A DNA stretch of 35,416 nt from Helicobacter pylori PMSS1 (GTDB lineage: Bacteria > Campylobacterota > Campylobacteria > Campylobacterales > Arcobacteraceae): the NCBI GenBank assembly GCA_945883785.1, contig CAMCYD010000008.1, positions 1 through 35,416 of the forward strand. The letters are read 5' to 3'. Positions within the stretch are counted from its first letter, which is position 1. Each line of letters starts with the position of its first letter. A model generated the notes under the pieces. The model saw nothing but the letters and a program-made list of their open reading frames with translations. It made no database searches and was not told the origin of the DNA. The position numbers were made by a program, and so were the translations under genes. Positions 9,454 to 18,818 of this stretch are shown one piece after another.

Positions 9454-11652
9454 TTATATGTTATCTATGATTGCATTTAATGTAGCAGATGGTCTCATCG
9501 CTACAGTTGTTTTTGTATCATTTGGATGATAGTATCCACCAATATCTTGAGCTTTTCCTTCAACAGCCATAAGCTCAGCCATAATTGTAGCTTCATTTTC
9601 AACTAAAGCTTTTGCGATTGGAGCAAATTTAACGGCAATTGATGGTGCTTTTGTTTGAGATGCCAAAGCCTCTGCCCAATATTGTGCTACAAAGAAATGA
9701 GATGCTTTATTATCAGGCTCCCCTGCACTTCTTCCTGGAGCTTTATTGTTATCAAGATACCCTGCATTTGCAACATCAAGTGCTTCAGTTACAGCTTCAA
9801 GTTCTTTCGAATTGTGTTTTTGAGCGATAAATCTTAAAGACTCAGCAAGTGCTAAAAACTCACCTAAAGAATCCCATCTTAAATGTCCTTCTTTTACAAA
9901 TTGCTCAACATGTTTAGGAGCTGAACCACCTGCACCTGTTTCAAATACACCACCACCAGTTAATAATGGTACTATTGAAAGCATTTTAGCCGATGTTCCG
10001 AGCTCTAAAATTGGGAAAAGGTCAGTTAAATAATCTCTTAAAACATTTCCAGTTGCACTTATAGTGTCAAGTCCAGCTCTTACTCTTCTTAAACTATATT
10101 TCATAGCTTGTTTTGGAGCTAAAATTTCATAGTTAATAGGAGATTTCTCCAAATGAGTTGGTAAATAAGTCATAAGTTTTTTAATTAAATTTGCATCATG
10201 TGGTCTAAAACTATCAAGCCAAAAAATTACAGGCTCGCCAGTAATCATCCCTCTTTCATGAGACAATTTAACCCAGTCTTTGATAGCTGAATCTTTAGTT
10301 CGGCTCATTCTCCAAATATCACCTTTTTCAACATTGTGGCTCATTAAAACTGTACCGTTTTCATCTTTTACTTCAACTACACCATCTTCAGCGATTTCAA
10401 AAGTTGTAGGATGCGAACCATACTCTTCAGCTTTTTGTGCCATCAAACCAACATTTGCAACATTTCCCATAGTTGTTACATCAAATTGACCATTAGCTAC
10501 ACAATCATCAACAATTTCTTTATAAAAAGTAGCATAAGTTCTATCAGGAATTACAGAAACACACTCTTGTACTTTTCCAGCAGAATTCCACATTTTCCCA
10601 CCATCTCTTACAACAACTGGCATAGAAGCATCTATGATGATGTCGTTTGAAGCATGAAGATTTGTGATACCTTTATCACTATCAACCATCGCCATATTTG
10701 GTTGAGTTTCGTAAACCGCCATTAAAGCTGTTTCGATTTCAGCTTTTTTGCTAGATTTTTCAAGTTTTTTGTAAAGATCCCCAAGTCCAAGATTTGCACT
10801 GTAACCTATTGCTTTAAACTCATCTGCGTATTTAGCAAATACATCTTTGAAAAATACTTCAACTGCATGTCCAAACATAATTGGATCTGAGATTTTCATC
10901 ATAGTAGCTTTTAAATGTAAAGACCAAAGGATATCGTTTGCTTTAGCATCATCTAAAGTTTTTTGATAAAATGCTCTTAAAGCCTTAGCTGACATAAATG
11001 TTCCATCTAAAATTTCACCATCAACTGCATTAATCTCTTTTAAAAGTTTACCATTAAGTTCAATTGTAACTTTTCCATTTCCCTCTTTGATAAGTGATTG
11101 CTCATTTTCATAAAAATCATTCCCAGTCATATGAGCGACACAAGTTTTTGAGTTTTCAGCAAAAGCTCTAAGTTTATGTGGATTTTTCTTCGCAAAATTT
11201 TTAACTGCAACCGCTGCTCTTCTATCGCTATTTCCTTCTCTTAAAACTGGATTTACAGCACTTCCTAAACAAGTTGAGAATTTTTCTTTAATAGCCTTTT
11301 CTTCATCGGTTTGAGCATCTTCTGGATACGAAGGTATATTATAGCCTTGTGATTGAAGCTCAGAAATACACTCTTTTAATTGTGGAATAGAAGCTGAAAT
11401 ATTTGGTAATTTTATAATATTACAATCTGGGTCTTGAACTAATTCACCAAGAGTTGCTAAGGCATCAGATTGTTGTTGTTCAGGTTTTAATCTATCAGAA
11501 AATGTTGCTATAACTCTTCCTGAAAGTGAAATATCGCTTAGTTCTACTGTTACATCTGCATCTTTTACAAATGCTTTTACTATAGGTAAAAATGAATAAG
11601 TTGCAAGAGCTGGAGCCTCGTCTATTTTTGACCAAATTATTTTTGCTGACAT
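9454..11652 (-). CDS. icd: Isocitrate dehydrogenase, monomeric NADP type
   Basis: The 732-residue length and the opening KIIWSKIDEAPALATYSFLPIV identify the large monomeric class of isocitrate dehydrogenase, unrelated in length to the 400-residue dimeric enzymes. Family blocks seen include VNPVLREGNSDRRAA, TMMKISDPIMFGHAVEVFF and RVRAGLDTISATGNVLRDYLTDLFPILELGTSAKMLSIVPL. It interconverts isocitrate and 2-oxoglutarate plus CO2 and is NADP-linked in characterised members. It feeds or drains the 2-oxoglutarate used by OorDABC. It is its own transcription unit, with two hairpins behind it and a 155-base gap upstream. Confidence 0.97.
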   Translation of the reverse strand: MSAKIIWSKIDEAPALATYSFLPIVKAFVKDADVTVELSDISLSGRVIATFSDRLKPEQQQSDALATLGELVQDPDCNIIKLPNISASIPQLKECISELQSQGYNIPSYPEDAQTDEEKAIKEKFSTCLGSAVNPVLREGNSDRRAAVAVKNFAKKNPHKLRAFAENSKTCVAHMTGNDFYENEQSLIKEGNGKVTIELNGKLLKEINAVDGEILDGTFMSAKALRAFYQKTLDDAKANDILWSLHLKATMMKISDPIMFGHAVEVFFKDVFAKYADEFKAIGYSANLGLGDLYKKLEKSSKKAEIETALMAVYETQPNMAMVDSDKGITNLHASNDIIIDASMPVVVRDGGKMWNSAGKVQECVSVIPDRTYATFYKEIVDDCVANGQFDVTTMGNVANVGLMAQKAEEYGSHPTTFEIAEDGVVEVKDENGTVLMSHNVEKGDIWRMSRTKDSAIKDWVKLSHERGMITGEPVIFWLDSFRPHDANLIKKLMTYLPTHLEKSPINYEILAPKQAMKYSLRRVRAGLDTISATGNVLRDYLTDLFPILELGTSAKMLSIVPLLTGGGVFETGAGGSAPKHVEQFVKEGHLRWDSLGEFLALAESLRFIAQKHNSKELEAVTEALDVANAGYLDNNKAPGRSAGEPDNKASHFFVAQYWAEALASQTKAPSIAVKFAPIAKALVENEATIMAELMAVEGKAQDIGGYYHPNDTKTTVAMRPSATLNAIIDNI

Positions 11653-11807: not shown

Positions 11808-13232
11808 TTAGATATCTTTCCATAACTCTTTTGATGGTTTTTGTTTTGATGGTTCTTTTTTATCTTTCTCTTTGTGTAACTTATCGTAAACATTTTTATC
11901 TTTTGTTTTTTCAGGTGCTTTTGTTTTTTCAGGTGCTTTTTTTGTTTCTTTTGCTTTTGAAGTTTCTTTTTGAGGTGTTTCTGTTTTGTTTTTTTTGATA
12001 GAATTTTTTTGTTGAGGAACCTCTTTCTCAGAAGATTTTATTGTCTTTTTTACAATATCGTCTTTCTTTTTTGTAGTGTTTGTATTTTTGGAATCACTTT
12101 TAATTGTTGACTTCATAGTCGTTGACTTTACATTCTTCTTTTCAATAATTTTTTCTGCATTTTTTTCTAGCCCTTTTTCTTTTTGTTCTATAGGCTTTGT
12201 TTCTTCATTTGAAATAATCTTTTCTTGAGCTACCGTTGTTGCTATATTTGCTTTATGGGCTTCGAAATTTGAAGCAAATGAATGACCTCCCCCCTCAGCT
12301 TTTTTCATAAAAAATAGGTAGCTATTTTTTGCAGGAAAAATGGCAGCTTTGATAGCTTCAAATTCCACCGCACACACAGGATCAGTTGGGATACCTGCAT
12401 ACTTGTAAGTATTGTAAGAAGTATCGTCATTTGCTATCATCGTTGGAGTTACTTTTGTATGGGAAAACTCTCCATAGTTAAGCGTTCCATCCATTTGAAG
12501 TTTCATTTTTTGGGCAAGTCGATTGTACACTACACCAGAAACTTGCATCATCTCTGCTTTTGAACCCGATTCTTTTTGGATAACTGAAGCGATGATAATG
12601 TACTTGTACCACACTTGTTTATAGTATTTTCCAAATATCTTTATACTGTATTTTTGATATTCTTCATCTGTATATTGGAAAAGATACAGGAGCAAATCCC
12701 TTGGATTCATACCAATTGGAAGATTGTAGGTTTGCGAGATGATATTTCCATCTTTTTTATAGGCAAGTTCAGCATACACTTTAAACAACTCTTCTCTTGG
12801 AAGTTTGAGTTTATCGGCAAGTTCATTTAAAAAGAAATAATAAGTTTCTCCAGGGATTAAGACAACAGTAGCAAGAGCAGCTTTTGATGTTGTTATTTTG
12901 TGCAAAAAATCAAGTTTTGTAAGTTTCGTATTGTCTGCTTTTAGCCCCATATCCATCCATCCACTTTGTGGGTACCCTATAAAAAACAGTGCTATTCTAT
13001 CTACAAAATTAAGGCTATATCCATTTTGATTTAGGTAAGATAATGCATTAGAAGTTGATCCTTTTGGTATAAAAACAACTCTTTTTGATTCTATTGGCAA
13101 GGTGAAATAAAACAAGATGGTTATAAAAATGACGAGAATATACTCTATTATATTTAAAGCTATAACTCTTTTGCTTGTTTTTTTTATATTTTCCGTGATG
13201 TTGCTGATATTTTTTCTAATTAATGGAATCAA
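11808..13232 (-). CDS. mltG: Endolytic murein transglycosylase MltG (YceG family) with long basic C-terminal tail
   Basis: MltG cuts nascent glycan strands at the inner membrane. One N-terminal membrane segment (about residues 24-46) is followed by the LysM-like IPKGST region and the catalytic domain, with Glu221 in ASVIQKESG and the later LQMDGTLNYG and NTYKYAGIPTDPV blocks. From about residue 340 the protein gains a 135-residue tail almost entirely of Lys, Glu, Thr, Ser and Pro, including a tandem KAPEKT; most MltG proteins lack this. No ATG precedes the membrane segment. The only ordinary start is TTG at 13230-13232, which overlaps the divergent AsmA-like gene by about 116 bases and has a weak ribosome site, so the true start is uncertain. 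Confidence 0.88.
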   Translation of the reverse strand: MIPLIRKNISNITENIKKTSKRVIALNIIEYILVIFITILFYFTLPIESKRVVFIPKGSTSNALSYLNQNGYSLNFVDRIALFFIGYPQSGWMDMGLKADNTKLTKLDFLHKITTSKAALATVVLIPGETYYFFLNELADKLKLPREELFKVYAELAYKKDGNIISQTYNLPIGMNPRDLLLYLFQYTDEEYQKYSIKIFGKYYKQVWYKYIIIASVIQKESGSKAEMMQVSGVVYNRLAQKMKLQMDGTLNYGEFSHTKVTPTMIANDDTSYNTYKYAGIPTDPVCAVEFEAIKAAIFPAKNSYLFFMKKAEGGGHSFASNFEAHKANIATTVAQEKIISNEETKPIEQKEKGLEKNAEKIIEKKNVKSTTMKSTIKSDSKNTNTTKKKDDIVKKTIKSSEKEVPQQKNSIKKNKTETPQKETSKAKETKKAPEKTKAPEKTKDKNVYDKLHKEKDKKEPSKQKPSKELWKDI

Positions 13233-16200
13233 ACTGAATAATCTTTCTTTTGGTGGTATTGATATTTCGGAATTGTATTTAAAATATGATAAAAAACTCT
13301 TTTTGCAAATTAGTAATCTCGGTTATCAAGGAAAAAAGTTAGACTGCAATATTTCAATTGGTAGTGACCATCAAAAATTTATTGTCGAGATTGAAAACTT
13401 TTACTATCAAAATCTAAAAATGAATTTTAGCGGCAAGCTTTTGCTTGATATAGAAGAGATTGAAGCCTTAAAAGATGGAACAAAAAAAGAGTTGACTTTT
13501 GATGCTGTTTCAATTATTTTTGATCAAAATCTTTCGCCAATTCTAGCAGAGAAGTTTTTTGTACATTTTCAAGATGATATCAATTTTCGTTTTTTACATC
13601 CAACTTTAGATGGTGTGAAGCTTGATAATTCGACTATAGATATTGTAGATTTGGCTCATGATGGCATTCTTAAAGTCTATTTGGATATTTATAATATGTT
13701 AGATTTGCGAATTTTGAAGATACTTGGAAATTATGAAGTTGAGCTCCCATTTAAACAAATAAGGGGGGCGACACACACTTTAGTACATATTGACATTCCT
13801 TTTTCAGATGATTTGGGAACTGTTATCTCTGCGGTTGCTAAAGTGCAAAACGGTGTTGTATCTGTTGGAGACAATCATCTCAATGTAAAACACACTCCAC
13901 CAGATCCAAACTCAAAAACAAAAGTGAGTGTAAGGGTGGAGCTTGCAAACAATAAAGTGTTGTTTGAGGATTATGCATTTCACTCCGATTTGCTTCATAT
14001 TGAATACGAAAAGGATGTAATAAAAATAGCCTCGAAACAAAATGATATTCATAAAGCAACGACAATGGTAGCAAACATTGAAAATCTCAATGCAATGCTA
14101 AAAGAGAAAAAACTTTTTTATGCTGTTGATATCAAAGACCCAAAAGCAAATTTTATAACAGTGGTGGGAGATACAAATCTTAAAGAACAAATCACAACCG
14201 GAGATTTTTTTGTTCGTCATTTTAATTACGATAATAAAGCGATAATAAACTCTGAACAGTTTACTTTTAAAGTTCAACATAAACCATTGAATGTTCAATG
14301 TAATGGGGATTTTGGAGTAGATATGCAAGTAGAAAATAATTTAACTCAAAAAGTTTTATTTGAAAATTTTGAGTTAAATTATAAAAATAATACAGTAAAA
14401 CTGTATGCAAATATTTTAGAGGAAAATAATACAGCAACGCTTCAACATACAACTGATTTGGATAAAAATAGTTCAAATGGAACAGTATTCATAAGTAATT
14501 TTGAGTATAAAGATGAAGCTAAAATACAAAATCAATCTGTGTATTATAAAGTAGAACACGAGCCACTTATAGCAAATATTACAGGCGATATTGAGATATT
14601 GCTTACAAATAATGGAAAAAATGAAAGTAACAAAATTCGATTTGAAAAACTAGTTGCGAGATATGAAAATAATCAAGCAACTATTGATACCAATATTAGA
14701 GAAAATCAAAATTTAGCGACCTTACATAATACAAGTTATTTTGATAAAAATGTTTCCAATGGTGCTTTGGCTATTGAAAATTATGAATATGAAGATAAAG
14801 CTAAAATGCAAAATCAGACTTTATTGTATACAGTAAACCATCAACCATTTACAGCTAAAGTAAGTGGAAATATTGAAATACTTTTGAAAGATACTGGGTC
14901 AAAAGAGGATAAAAAGATTAGTTTTGAAAATTTTCTTGCCCAATATCAAGATGAAAAAGTAACTGTTCATTCTGATATTATAGAAAATAATAATACGGCA
15001 AAAATTTCTAATGTTACATATTTGGACAAAGATAAGTCAAATGGGAGCCTATTTATAAATAATTTTCAATATGACGATGTAGCAAAATTGCAAAATCAAA
15101 CCATAAATTATGAAGTAAAACATAAGCCATTTCAAGCACATATCACAAGTGATTTGACAGCAACTTTGCAAAATAAAGAGACTATTTTAAATGGTTTAGA
15201 TGTGGTGTATGGGAAAAATAGTATCAATCTCAAAACAAATTATTTAGAGGGTAATGCTTCTGCCTATCTTACAAATACGACAAACTTAGATACAAATACT
15301 TCAAAAGGAAACCTTGAATTAAAAACTTTTACATTTAAACAATATCTTGATTTGAAAAATGAATTTTTGCAATATAGTGTTGATTTTAAAAATGGAATAA
15401 AAGCTTCTATCCCAAAATATTTGCTAACTTACACAAAAGATGCAAATAACACACAAAATCTTTTTGTTGGAAAACTGAACAATCTTTTAGGCAAAGTAAA
15501 TCTTGTTTCAAACAAAAGTCTGAATAATGGTACTTTACATATCTCTAGCAATAAAGAATTTCAAAATACCAATATTATCATCAATGATTTGGGAGTGGAT
15601 ATAAATAGCACACTTTTCAAATCAGACCAAGCTGATAAAACTAATGAAACTGTCGTTCAAGCAGAGCAAAATAATTCAGATTTACCAAAAATATCACTTA
15701 AAATGTTTAATTCAAAAGTTTCGATTGATGGGATGGATTTGAATTCATCTTCAATCCTTGGAGAATTTTATAAGCAAGATATGGATATAAAATATTTGCC
15801 TCAAGATGAAAATAGCACTATTAAATTGTATAAAAGCGGAGATAGTTTGAGTATAAAAGCGACAGGTTTAAGTGATAACTTTATAAATAGTTTGGCAAAA
15901 AAAGATATTTTTGATGATGGACTTTTCTCACTTGATATTGACGGAAATAAAACAAATATGTACGGTGGAATGTATGTGAGAGATACAACGGTAAAAAATG
16001 TAAGAATTTTAAATAATCTTATTAGTTTTGTCAATACCACACCAGCTATCATTAATCCCCTTTTGGCATTGCCAACACTTTTTAGAATGAGCGAAACGAA
16101 TTTTGATATGAATGGTTATTTGATAAAAGATGGCTATGTCAAATTTGACTATGATTATGAAAATAAATTTCTTAATCTTCCATCATTTTATACAAGAAGT

Positions 16201-16554
16201 AAAATGATGGATTTTAAAGGAAAAGGAAAAGTAGATATAGCAAATAAAAAATTAGAGGCTGGAATAGATGTGATATTTTTGAAAGATTACTCTAAATTTG
16301 TCAATCACATCCCACTTATAGGGTATATCCTAACAGGAGATGATGGCAATTTTGTGACAAATGTCGATATCAATGGAACTTTTGAAACTCAAGAATTTAC
16401 GACTCATGCTATTTCAAATACAGCAGAGGGTGTAGTAAATATGATAAAACGAACGATTTCTGTTCCTTTTATCCCTTTTATGGATAATGGAAAAAAAGAG
16501 GATGGAAACTCTACAAAACAAAACACAACAAACACTACAAATGAAGGAAATTGA
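13117..16554 (+). CDS. AsmA/YhdP-like envelope protein with internal repeats
   Basis: The 1145-residue protein has an N-terminal membrane anchor (about residues 8-35) and a long beta-rich periplasmic part. The C-terminal region (SETNFDMNGYLIKDGYVKFDY, KGKGKVDIANKKLEAGIDV, IPLIGYILTGDDG) is the AsmA-like C-terminal domain of large lipid-transport bridge proteins such as YhdP and TamB relatives. Four consecutive 93-94-residue repeats span residues 360-728. The final residues are Asn/Thr-rich. Starts at 13117 and 13129 are both possible; AAGGTG at 13098 is distant from either. The gene overlaps mltG at its 5' end and dnaB by one base at its 3' end. A role in moving phospholipid to the outer membrane is inference from the family. 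Confidence 0.85.
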   Translation: MVIKMTRIYSIIFKAITLLLVFFIFSVMLLIFFLINGIKLNNLSFGGIDISELYLKYDKKLFLQISNLGYQGKKLDCNISIGSDHQKFIVEIENFYYQNLKMNFSGKLLLDIEEIEALKDGTKKELTFDAVSIIFDQNLSPILAEKFFVHFQDDINFRFLHPTLDGVKLDNSTIDIVDLAHDGILKVYLDIYNMLDLRILKILGNYEVELPFKQIRGATHTLVHIDIPFSDDLGTVISAVAKVQNGVVSVGDNHLNVKHTPPDPNSKTKVSVRVELANNKVLFEDYAFHSDLLHIEYEKDVIKIASKQNDIHKATTMVANIENLNAMLKEKKLFYAVDIKDPKANFITVVGDTNLKEQITTGDFFVRHFNYDNKAIINSEQFTFKVQHKPLNVQCNGDFGVDMQVENNLTQKVLFENFELNYKNNTVKLYANILEENNTATLQHTTDLDKNSSNGTVFISNFEYKDEAKIQNQSVYYKVEHEPLIANITGDIEILLTNNGKNESNKIRFEKLVARYENNQATIDTNIRENQNLATLHNTSYFDKNVSNGALAIENYEYEDKAKMQNQTLLYTVNHQPFTAKVSGNIEILLKDTGSKEDKKISFENFLAQYQDEKVTVHSDIIENNNTAKISNVTYLDKDKSNGSLFINNFQYDDVAKLQNQTINYEVKHKPFQAHITSDLTATLQNKETILNGLDVVYGKNSINLKTNYLEGNASAYLTNTTNLDTNTSKGNLELKTFTFKQYLDLKNEFLQYSVDFKNGIKASIPKYLLTYTKDANNTQNLFVGKLNNLLGKVNLVSNKSLNNGTLHISSNKEFQNTNIIINDLGVDINSTLFKSDQADKTNETVVQAEQNNSDLPKISLKMFNSKVSIDGMDLNSSSILGEFYKQDMDIKYLPQDENSTIKLYKSGDSLSIKATGLSDNFINSLAKKDIFDDGLFSLDIDGNKTNMYGGMYVRDTTVKNVRILNNLISFVNTTPAIINPLLALPTLFRMSETNFDMNGYLIKDGYVKFDYDYENKFLNLPSFYTRSKMMDFKGKGKVDIANKKLEAGIDVIFLKDYSKFVNHIPLIGYILTGDDGNFVTNVDINGTFETQEFTTHAISNTAEGVVNMIKRTISVPFIPFMDNGKKEDGNSTKQNTTNTTNEGN
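14194..15300 (+). repeat. Four tandem ~282-bp coding repeats in the AsmA-like gene
   Basis: Units begin at 14194, 14473, 14755 and 15037, with lengths of 279, 282, 282 and 264 bases. Each encodes SNG-x-L-F-I-x-N-F-E-Y, then AK-x-QNQ, then V-x-H-x-PF, then a GDIEILL-like strand, an ENNNTA block and LDKN. A fifth, much decayed unit begins near 15301. Protein similarity is clear while the DNA has drifted, so the duplication is old. Confidence 0.85.
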
Positions 16555-17993
16555 TGGATAATATTTATGCAATAAACATAGAAAGAGCAGTTTTAAGCTC
16601 GATTTTTTTTAGCCCAGAGGTTATAGAGGATATTTTAGGGATACTCAAACCAAAAGATTTTTATCTTCCTGCTCACAAAAAGATTTTTGAAGTGATGGAG
16701 CAACTGAACTCTCAAGATTTACCAATCGATGAGGAGTTTATACGACGAAGAGTTGATAGTAAAGAGGTGGATGATAGTGTTTTGATTGAGATACTTTCTG
16801 CAAATGCTATCTCAAATACGATGGCGTATGCAAAAGAGATTAAAGATAGTTCGGTGAAAAGGGAGTTGATTTCTCTTGCTACTTCTATCAAAAAAGTGAC
16901 TATCGAAGATGAGCTTCCTGCTAGTGAAGCGGTAGATTTTGTTCAAAATGCACTCTATAAAATCACAACCGATAGCGCAAGTAGTGAGCTAAAAAATATG
17001 TACCAAATTACTACAGATACTTTGCTTCATATGGAGAAGATGAAACAAAGGGGAAATTCTTATCTTATAGGGGAAACCACTGGATTTGATGAGCTTGATA
17101 GAAAAACAACTGGTTTTAATAATGGTGACCTTGTGATAATAGCTGCTCGTCCTGCTATGGGAAAAACTTCTTTTGTTTTGAATACGGCTTTGAGAAATGT
17201 AGAAAATGGATGTGGAGTGATATTTTTCTCTCTTGAGATGCCAGCAGAGCAACTTATGATGAGGTTATTGAGTACAAAAACCAAAATTCCTTTGCAAAAT
17301 GTAAGAAAAGGGGATTTGGATGATAAACAATGGAGTGCTATCACAAGGGCTTTTGAAGACTTAAATAAAAAGAAACTTTTTGTCGATGATAGTGGAAGTG
17401 TCAATATCAATCAACTAAGAGCACGGGTGCGAAAAATCGCTGGAAATAAAGAGAACAATATCAAAATGGTCATCATCGATTATCTTCAACTTATGCAAGG
17501 GACAGGTGGAAAAGATAGACACTTGGAGGTTTCTGAAATCAGTAGGGGGCTTAAGATGCTAGCAAGAGAGATGGGCGTTCCTATTTTGGCACTTTCTCAG
17601 CTGAATCGTGGGCTAGAAAGCCGACCAGATAAAAGACCGATGCTTAGTGATATACGAGAATCTGGGTCAATCGAGCAGGATGCCGATATCATAATGTTTG
17701 TCTATCGTGACGATGTTTACAAGGAGAGAGATGAACAAAGAAAAGAGAAAGAATCAAAGGACAAAGGGGAAGCTTATAAAAGTGCGTTTATCAACAAACC
17801 AATAGAAGAAGCGGAAATCATCATCGGAAAACAAAGAAACGGACCAACAGGGACTGTGAAACTCGATTTCCACAAAGAACTTACGATGTTTGTTGATAAA
17901 GATGCTCCACATAGAAATGCCCCAGTTGTCACAACTTATGAGAGTGTTGCTGATGCTGAAATCGATACTATCGTGGATATCCCTGATATATGA
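16554..17993 (+). CDS. dnaB: Replicative DNA helicase DnaB
   Basis: The 479-residue hexameric helicase unwinds DNA at replication forks. The N-terminal domain (NIERAVLSSIFF) is followed by a linker and the RecA-like ATPase with Walker A ARPAMGKTS at 198-206, the VIIDYLQLM Walker B region, and EISRGLKMLAREMGVPILALSQLNR. The last 40 residues are acidic. The ATG shares its A with the TGA of the AsmA-like gene (TGATG) and has an AAGGAA ribosome site, so both are co-transcribed. No intein is present. Confidence 0.97.
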   Translation: MDNIYAINIERAVLSSIFFSPEVIEDILGILKPKDFYLPAHKKIFEVMEQLNSQDLPIDEEFIRRRVDSKEVDDSVLIEILSANAISNTMAYAKEIKDSSVKRELISLATSIKKVTIEDELPASEAVDFVQNALYKITTDSASSELKNMYQITTDTLLHMEKMKQRGNSYLIGETTGFDELDRKTTGFNNGDLVIIAARPAMGKTSFVLNTALRNVENGCGVIFFSLEMPAEQLMMRLLSTKTKIPLQNVRKGDLDDKQWSAITRAFEDLNKKKLFVDDSGSVNINQLRARVRKIAGNKENNIKMVIIDYLQLMQGTGGKDRHLEVSEISRGLKMLAREMGVPILALSQLNRGLESRPDKRPMLSDIRESGSIEQDADIIMFVYRDDVYKERDEQRKEKESKDKGEAYKSAFINKPIEEAEIIIGKQRNGPTGTVKLDFHKELTMFVDKDAPHRNAPVVTTYESVADAEIDTIVDIPDI

Positions 17994-18196: not shown

Positions 18197-18547
18197 TTAC
18201 TTTTCGTTTCGTAAATCATCTATTGTAAAATGTTGTTCAATGAGTTCTCTTAACTCTCCATCACTCAGGCTTTCTTTTTCAGTTTTGGAATAAACAGAGA
18301 TAAGAATAATTTTATCTTCAAGTTGAGCATAGATAATCGCTCTAAAACCGCCACTTTTACCAGTTGGAATTGAAGAGTTTTTTATTCTTTTTTTAAAAAG
18401 ATTCAATCCTAAAAATACACCAAAATCATTATTCTGTTCAATCTCCTCTAATGCTTGTTGCAAGTCAGACTTTAAAAGCCTAAATTTTTTTGATAACTTC
18501 TTTGCTTCTTTTAAAAAGTTATCACTGTACTCAATTATCAAGCTCAT
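18197..18547 (-). CDS. RelE/ParE-superfamily toxin
   Basis: The 116-residue protein has the order of elements of a RelE-like toxin: SDNFLKEAKKLSKK near the N-terminus, then a long helix, the basic KKRIKNSSIPTGKSGGFRAI core, and the strand IILISVYSKTEKESLS. RelE-type toxins are mostly ribosome-dependent mRNA endonucleases; whether this one is cannot be shown here. It overlaps the upstream antitoxin gene by 17 bases, the usual toxin-second order. The 3' end lies only four bases from hairpin repeat copy 1. Confidence 0.82.
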   Translation of the reverse strand: MSLIIEYSDNFLKEAKKLSKKFRLLKSDLQQALEEIEQNNDFGVFLGLNLFKKRIKNSSIPTGKSGGFRAIIYAQLEDKIILISVYSKTEKESLSDGELRELIEQHFTIDDLRNEK

Positions 18548-18818
18548 TCCATAGTGTACTAATTGATTTTGTGTTACCTAGTTTAACATCGTTTAGACCT
18601 GCTTTGATAGATGTTAAGATTTGTTGTGCTTCTACTTTTTTAAGTGTTTCGCTCATAGCTTCGTACTCATCTTTTGAAACAAGTACTGCTTCAACTTTAT
18701 TGTTTTTTAGAATTGCTAACTTATCAACTGTATTATTTGTCAGTTGTAAAAGATATGACCCAAACTTTTTGGCTAACTCTGATGATGAAACAAGTTCATT
18801 TGTGGAATATGTTACCAT
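18531..18818 (-). CDS. Phd/YefM-type antitoxin
   Basis: The 95-residue protein has the Phd/YefM pattern: MVTYSTNELVSSSELAKKFG for the DNA-binding dimer, then DKLAILKNNKVEAVLVSKDEYEAM, the most recognisable family block. The C-terminal third is the likely toxin-binding arm. The start has a GAGGG site at about eight bases. It is the first gene of the pair and presumably represses the shared promoter. Confidence 0.85.
   Translation of the reverse strand: MVTYSTNELVSSSELAKKFGSYLLQLTNNTVDKLAILKNNKVEAVLVSKDEYEAMSETLKKVEAQQILTSIKAGLNDVKLGNTKSISTLWNELDN

Follow-up and report, generated by a model that had tools for sequence, protein, structure and literature searches.

Three AsmA-like proteins of Escherichia coli, YhdP, TamB, and YdbH, are described as collectively essential and have been implicated, on genetic grounds, in phospholipid transport (PMC8593681, PMC8912898). 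E. coli YhdP is reportedly of sufficient length to cross the periplasm, with a C-terminus able to enter the outer membrane (PMC11226057). The proteins of the RBG superfamily (VPS13, ATG2, SHIP164, Hobbit, and Tweek) are built around a modular groove. In the passages of the RBG survey cited here, each module has six groove-crossing elements, namely five strands and a loop, and all modules begin on the same side; for VPS13, growth through repeated central duplication is described, and the basis of the varying module number is named as yet to be studied (PMC7613979). Bridge proteins in which groove modules are repeated are already known, as is the growth of such proteins by central duplication, seen in VPS13. 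The new part of the present work is a within-genus length series in a bacterial YhdP; the literature searched, which included few subscription papers, contained no series of copy numbers within one genus for a bacterial AsmA-type bridge.

The YhdP-like protein and its locus

The window, i.e. the whole stretch of 35,416 nucleotides analysed here, contains the following features relevant to this study. The last line refers to another genome of the same genus, G007.

11808..13232, minus strand: mltG-like gene, divergent neighbour, adjoining the yhdP-like gene in all 21 loci examined
13117..16554, plus strand: yhdP-like gene, ORF of 1145 aa comprising a membrane helix, a YhdP-like core, the repeat array, and a conserved C-terminal part
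13129..13224, plus strand: N-terminal hydrophobic helix (aa 5-36), presumed inner-membrane anchor
13468..13968, plus strand: YhdP-homologous core ahead of the array (aa 118-284; hhalign E 7e-7)
14194..14472, plus strand: repeat unit 1, 93 aa, starting at aa 360; orthologous first unit
14473..14754, plus strand: repeat unit 2, 94 aa, starting at aa 453; six predicted strands
14755..15036, plus strand: repeat unit 3, 94 aa, starting at aa 547; six predicted strands, variable middle unit
15037..15300, plus strand: repeat unit 4, 88 aa, starting at aa 641; orthologous last unit
15301..15576, plus strand: degenerate fifth unit (aa 729-820; z ~3 against units 2-4; i-E 0.23)
15817..16476, plus strand: C-terminal part conserved in alignment A2 (about aa 901-1120), with a conserved K-R...P helix region at its end
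16551..17993, plus strand: dnaB-like gene, whose start overlaps the yhdP-like stop codon at 16551-16554
G007:C28:2120-4777: DUF748/AsmA-type protein L067, present in G007 alone in the genus

Judged by its sequence, the protein encoded at 13117..16554 is AsmA-like and a diverged representative of the YhdP family. Taken alone, it matched no Pfam family in hmmscan (noise only, and nothing at E <= 1 for PF13116), no NCBIfam family, and no sequence in the PDB. The PDB search with A2, an alignment and profile of 21 relatives, likewise gave no match, and that with the unit profile gave noise only. Homologues were present in 51 of 60 related genomes according to the sequence search and in 52 according to the 21-row profile A2. 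PF13116 was matched by 14 of the 21 A2 members at E <= 0.1 (best 1.7e-63). The nearest relative outside the genus, L038 of genome G019, was found by the window protein at E 4e-85 and scored 83 bits against PF13116, for which the cut-off is 46 bits. Comparison of A2 with E. coli YhdP by hhalign gave E 7e-7 and probability 92 over 165 columns, with aa 118-284 of the window protein corresponding to residues 505-692 of E. coli YhdP. A direct genome search with PF13116 placed model positions 541-677 at window 13495-13905 (E 9e-10; 36.7 bits, below the 46-bit cut-off). This model exceeded its cut-off in 41 of the 60 related genomes and detected just one of the eight genomes of the window's genus, so it is insensitive here. 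In the relatives, its matches extend to positions 1223-1224 of 1224. Among the eight A2-negative genomes of the 60, one, G050, does have a match to PF13116. The AsmA-like assignment made in the initial annotation is thus borne out, as YhdP family, by PF13116 in the relatives and by the profile match to E. coli YhdP.

The window protein shares with E. coli YhdP the homologous core, an N-terminal membrane helix, and an all-beta body, and the C-terminus of E. coli YhdP is homologous to that of the relatives of the window protein. The segment of aa 5-36 is hydrophobic in all aligned relatives; it formed a helix (block pLDDT 47-69) in a low-confidence full-length AlphaFold2 model, which was calculated from two rows and discarded (pLDDT 29.3). 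Two differences are apparent. E. coli YhdP displays no such array of four recognisable repeats of 93-94 aa, its best self-match being no better than those of shuffled sequences. The window protein is also about 120 aa shorter ahead of the core than YhdP of a sister genus: PF13116 position 534 corresponds to aa 254 in L040 and position 541 to about aa 127 in the window protein, and this N-terminal shortening is a feature of the window's genus (g1). TamB is an AsmA-like periplasmic bridge too, but belongs to a different family.

The neighbouring gene at 11808..13232 is named mltG-like for its sequence resemblance, and we take that at 16551..17993 to be dnaB-like. A dnaB-like gene lies 3' of the yhdP-like gene in all six sufficiently long loci of the genus and was not found in the 14 loci of other genera examined. 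In the predicted ORFs, the yhdP-like gene (plus strand) and the mltG-like gene (minus strand), the latter starting with TTG, share 116 bp at their 5' ends in a head-to-head overlap (window 13117-13232). An identical overlap of 116 bp is predicted in locus L031 (5001-5116), and similar positions were seen elsewhere in the genus. Short tandem repeats of 18 and 30 bp occur in the mltG-like gene, in its lysine-rich tail (window 11900-11987). The protein encoded at 9454-11652 is presumably aconitase-like (acnB). It is 90-94% identical to its counterparts in G007 and G006 and about 67% to those in G002, G004, and G005; the dehydrogenase adjoining it is 93-98% identical in all five, a pattern that may hint at replacement of the acnB-like gene. 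At 18197-18818, on the minus strand, there is a small overlapping pair of ORFs, which we take to resemble a RelE/ParE-type toxin with its antitoxin.

Repeat array and copy number within the genus

The units of the array begin at window positions 14194, 14473, 14755, and 15037, with a weak fifth from 15301, giving spacings of 279, 282, 282, and 264 nt (93, 94, 94, and 88 aa). These starts and spacings are exactly those given in the initial annotation. Its four tandem repeats also stand as four units, since all six pairs among units 1-4 reached z values of 15.7-34.0 in comparison with 500 residue shuffles per pair; the length of 93-94 residues does not hold for the fourth unit, which has 88. Pairwise identity among units 1-4 is 27-45%. 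The fifth unit is marginal: its z is 3.0-3.3 when compared with units 2-4 and -0.3 with unit 1. The unit profile revealed a weak downstream copy at about aa 731-821 (i-E 0.23) and a weak upstream copy at about aa 240-333 (i-E 0.13). At the DNA level, the array displays only a shorter three-copy family of 71-73% identity, and Tandem Repeats Finder reported no repeat over it. The array is therefore old and chiefly visible at the protein level. Its growth by tandem duplication, proposed at the outset, is supported by the shuffle scores together with the unit tree and the unit DNA comparison described below.

Comparison of the repeat number between species, suggested in the initial annotation, revealed one to four copies inside a single genus (eight genomes). 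According to the unit profile, there are four units in the window's genome (G000) and in G007, four and a partial fifth in G002, three in G004 and G005, two in G003, and one in G001. At least two are present in G006, where two and a half units are followed by the contig end; this genome was accordingly omitted from A2, A4, and the comparison of C-terminal arms. The arms on both sides of the array vary little in length across the genus, i.e. 329-361 aa before and, without G006, 396-427 aa after it. In the arm tree, a clade of G001 and G003 (97) branches outside the other genomes (100), among which the order of G000/G007, G002, and G004 is poorly supported (39-49).

In a tree of 24 units, the first units of the six genomes that carry three or four units clustered together, and so did their last units, G006 being counted by its two and a half. 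The middle units vary in number between genomes. Units 2 and 3 of G007, whose gene coincides in coordinates with locus L031, pair as sisters (0.938) with 78% identity; their DNA identity is 71 and 73% to window unit 2 and 62% each to window unit 3. With the first and last units orthologous and the middle ones turning over, the array grew and turned over from its middle. Differences between orthologous units are greatest at third codon positions, and for this reason the copies look to be under purifying selection. Among 398 genomes sampled from the order, the 94-aa unit was strongly matched in three, all of the window's genus; two further genomes gave marginal matches, in other proteins (E 7e-4 and 1e-3).

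Predicted structure of the units and a possible mechanism

Units 2-3 (188 aa) were modelled with AlphaFold2 from six rows, cut as two-unit pieces, in shifted register, from the window and L031 proteins. The resulting model (pLDDT 86.7, pTM 0.67) consists of 12 strands and no helix. The strands are long (10-14 residues), six per unit, and follow one another in sequence order. Three of the five models were good (78-87) and two were poor (47.4 and 45.7). In this two-unit model, the 12 strands make up a single continuous sheet, and the separate folding of repeats, which the initial annotation had named as the contrary outcome, was not seen. As far as the prediction can say, adjacent units continue one sheet and are not separate domains. 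Since a single sheet runs over both, the most likely contribution of a unit to the predicted groove wall is about six strands.

A Foldseek search of the PDB with the two-unit model returned nothing at E <= 0.001. The best match in VIA-align was apolipoprotein B-100 (Z 13.0, 172 residues, rmsd 8.6), followed by porin-type barrels with Z of about 10-11, such as OmpT (Z 10.9, 161 residues, rmsd 2.9 A). These matches, to single curved sheets and barrels, run over model residues 1-188; according to the tool's own note, such likeness may reflect a shared arrangement and not kinship. No known AsmA-family structure was among the matches listed, which excludes nothing. A test for plain hydrophobic alternation along the strands gave no significance, 1914 of 20000 shuffles doing as well. 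A second test on the same data, made after the plain version had failed, permitted each strand one phase shift and yielded one hydrophobic face per strand (15 of 5000 shuffles as good). One phase shift per strand is what a kinked groove strand would need.

The window protein is probably a YhdP-family AsmA-like bridge across the periplasm, whose central groove has been lengthened by tandem modules of about 94 residues. The N-terminal helix would anchor the protein in the inner membrane, the open beta-sheet groove would shield lipid tails across the periplasm, and the C-terminal end would meet the outer membrane. The lipid cargo is assumed by analogy with E. coli YhdP, and the groove would continue along the full length of the protein. 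Tandem duplication of the module would lengthen the central groove in this genus, each module of six predicted antiparallel strands extending the sheet by about six. As the number of strands is even, a copy could be inserted without the chain switching the side of the groove. With a beta-strand spacing of 0.48 nm, six strands would arithmetically add at most about 2.9 nm, and proteins with one and four units would differ by up to about 8.6 nm. For comparison, the periplasm of E. coli is reported to be about 3-4 nm wider with the Lpp+21 variant (PMC8824477). Modular groove, central duplication, and six crossings are points of likeness to the RBG superfamily. The sixth RBG element is a helix or loop crossing back, whereas the window units have six predicted strands and no helix; the RBG definition, a five-strand meander plus a crossing loop or helix as worded in the cited passage (PMC7613979), does not describe the unit model.

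Variation in length and its interpretation

The yhdP-like gene was matched in 101 of 104 genomes in a family-wide search. Open frames of 972-999 aa were found in 29 of 31 species of genus g10 and of 980-1012 aa in 14 of 16 species of g19, in a comparison that omits truncated, split, or unmatched genes (G016 and G075 in g10; G104 and the unmatched G099 in g19). The seven uncut genes of the window's genus, g1, span 827-1156 aa. Seven fetched g10 proteins with identities down to 38% had a length range of 23 aa; the range was 329 aa in seven fetched g1 proteins with identities down to 34%. The yhdP-like gene at G016:C1:1098135-1101040 consists of two frames, of 628 and 350 aa, with internal stops, and is a pseudogene or the result of a sequencing error.

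The YhdP-like proteins of other Arcobacteraceae represent the same gene by synteny and sequence, and most of those examined have one internal duplication. In many of them, it consists of 104-111 aa at about aa 510-650; in contrast to the array, it has two copies only and lies further downstream, and the total length of these proteins is nearly constant. Fetched proteins without it (g2, g7, and g8) have 840-880 aa and those with it about 972-1007 aa. The duplication was insignificant in G020 (score 74, with shuffles reaching 76), was not found in L094, and in L095 was not at that offset. It is independent of the array of the window's genus. Given such separate duplications in other genera, the middle of YhdP is a recurrent duplication site in the family, with the window's genus furthest among the genomes seen. 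Another internal duplication, with an offset of 124 aa near aa 274, was observed in the 1115-aa YhdP-like protein L048 (G011).

Two explanations of the varying copy number were considered; they concern the reason for the variation and not the identity of the protein. Array length may be neutral, units being gained and lost by unequal crossing-over while bridge function is unaffected, because the protein is flexible or need not span the whole periplasm alone. The turnover of middle units, seen in L031 units 2 and 3 that are nearer to window unit 2 than to unit 3, and the fourfold difference in copy number among congeners fit this explanation. E. coli YdbH is shorter than YhdP and TamB. Bridges of differing length coexist in E. 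coli, where YhdP has 1266 aa and TamB 1259 aa as given in PMC8912898. We regard neutrality as possible but hold it tentatively, since length is almost fixed in similarly diverged sister genera, as the 23 aa of g10 against the 329 aa of g1 illustrate, and since the units look to be under purifying selection.

The other explanation, which we consider rather doubtful, is that the number of units is tuned to the gap between the two membranes, a wider periplasm calling for more of them. It would agree with central, even-stranded modules added serially and with the widening of 3-4 nm by Lpp+21 in E. coli (PMC8824477), roughly that predicted for one unit. It would also agree with the repertoire of bridges in these genomes. 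TamB was detected in none of the eight genomes of the genus, G000 included, with Pfam PF04357 or an order-level TamB profile, the latter finding it in 12 of 60 relatives. YdbH was found in none of the eight, and the DUF748 and AsmA models matched one and the same protein, in G007 only. Because the Pfam models are weak here, with PF13116 finding one of eight genomes, TamB was re-tested with the order-level profile, and it alone; the absences other than that of TamB are correspondingly weak. The YhdP-like protein may thus be the sole AsmA-type bridge in most members of the genus, no other being detected in seven of eight genomes, and so may span the periplasm alone. Against tuning, the series of units partly offsets the N-terminal shortening of about 120 aa in the genus, and the total length reaches no single common value. 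That the six-strand unit of 94 residues is a duplicable length module, whose copy number evolves as a ruler matching the channel to periplasm width, we judge unlikely. The distribution of TamB was also compared with that of YhdP: TamB occurs in three of eight A2-negative genomes (G041, G042, and G052) and in nine of 52 A2-positive ones, too weak a difference to treat the two proteins as mutual alternatives.

It is very improbable that the units are separate Ig-like beta-sandwich domains forming a spacer or stalk instead of a groove wall: their size of about 93 aa is typical of such domains and there are weak Pfam noise matches (V-set, E 0.092; EndoS_Ig-like, E 0.0022, in unit 1 only and below the cut-off), but 22 of 23 units have no EndoS_Ig-like match, the two-unit model aligns as a single sheet across both units, and the array sits in a YhdP-family protein with YhdP-homologous parts on both sides.

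With the protein read as a YhdP-family bridge whose central groove is lengthened by tandem modules, what is at stake is whether the length of a bridge-like lipid transporter must match the gap it spans. One genus with one, two, three, and four module copies at a single site, between arms of constant length, makes this question testable, and the apparent lack of another AsmA-type bridge in most of its members adds to the value of the genus for this purpose.
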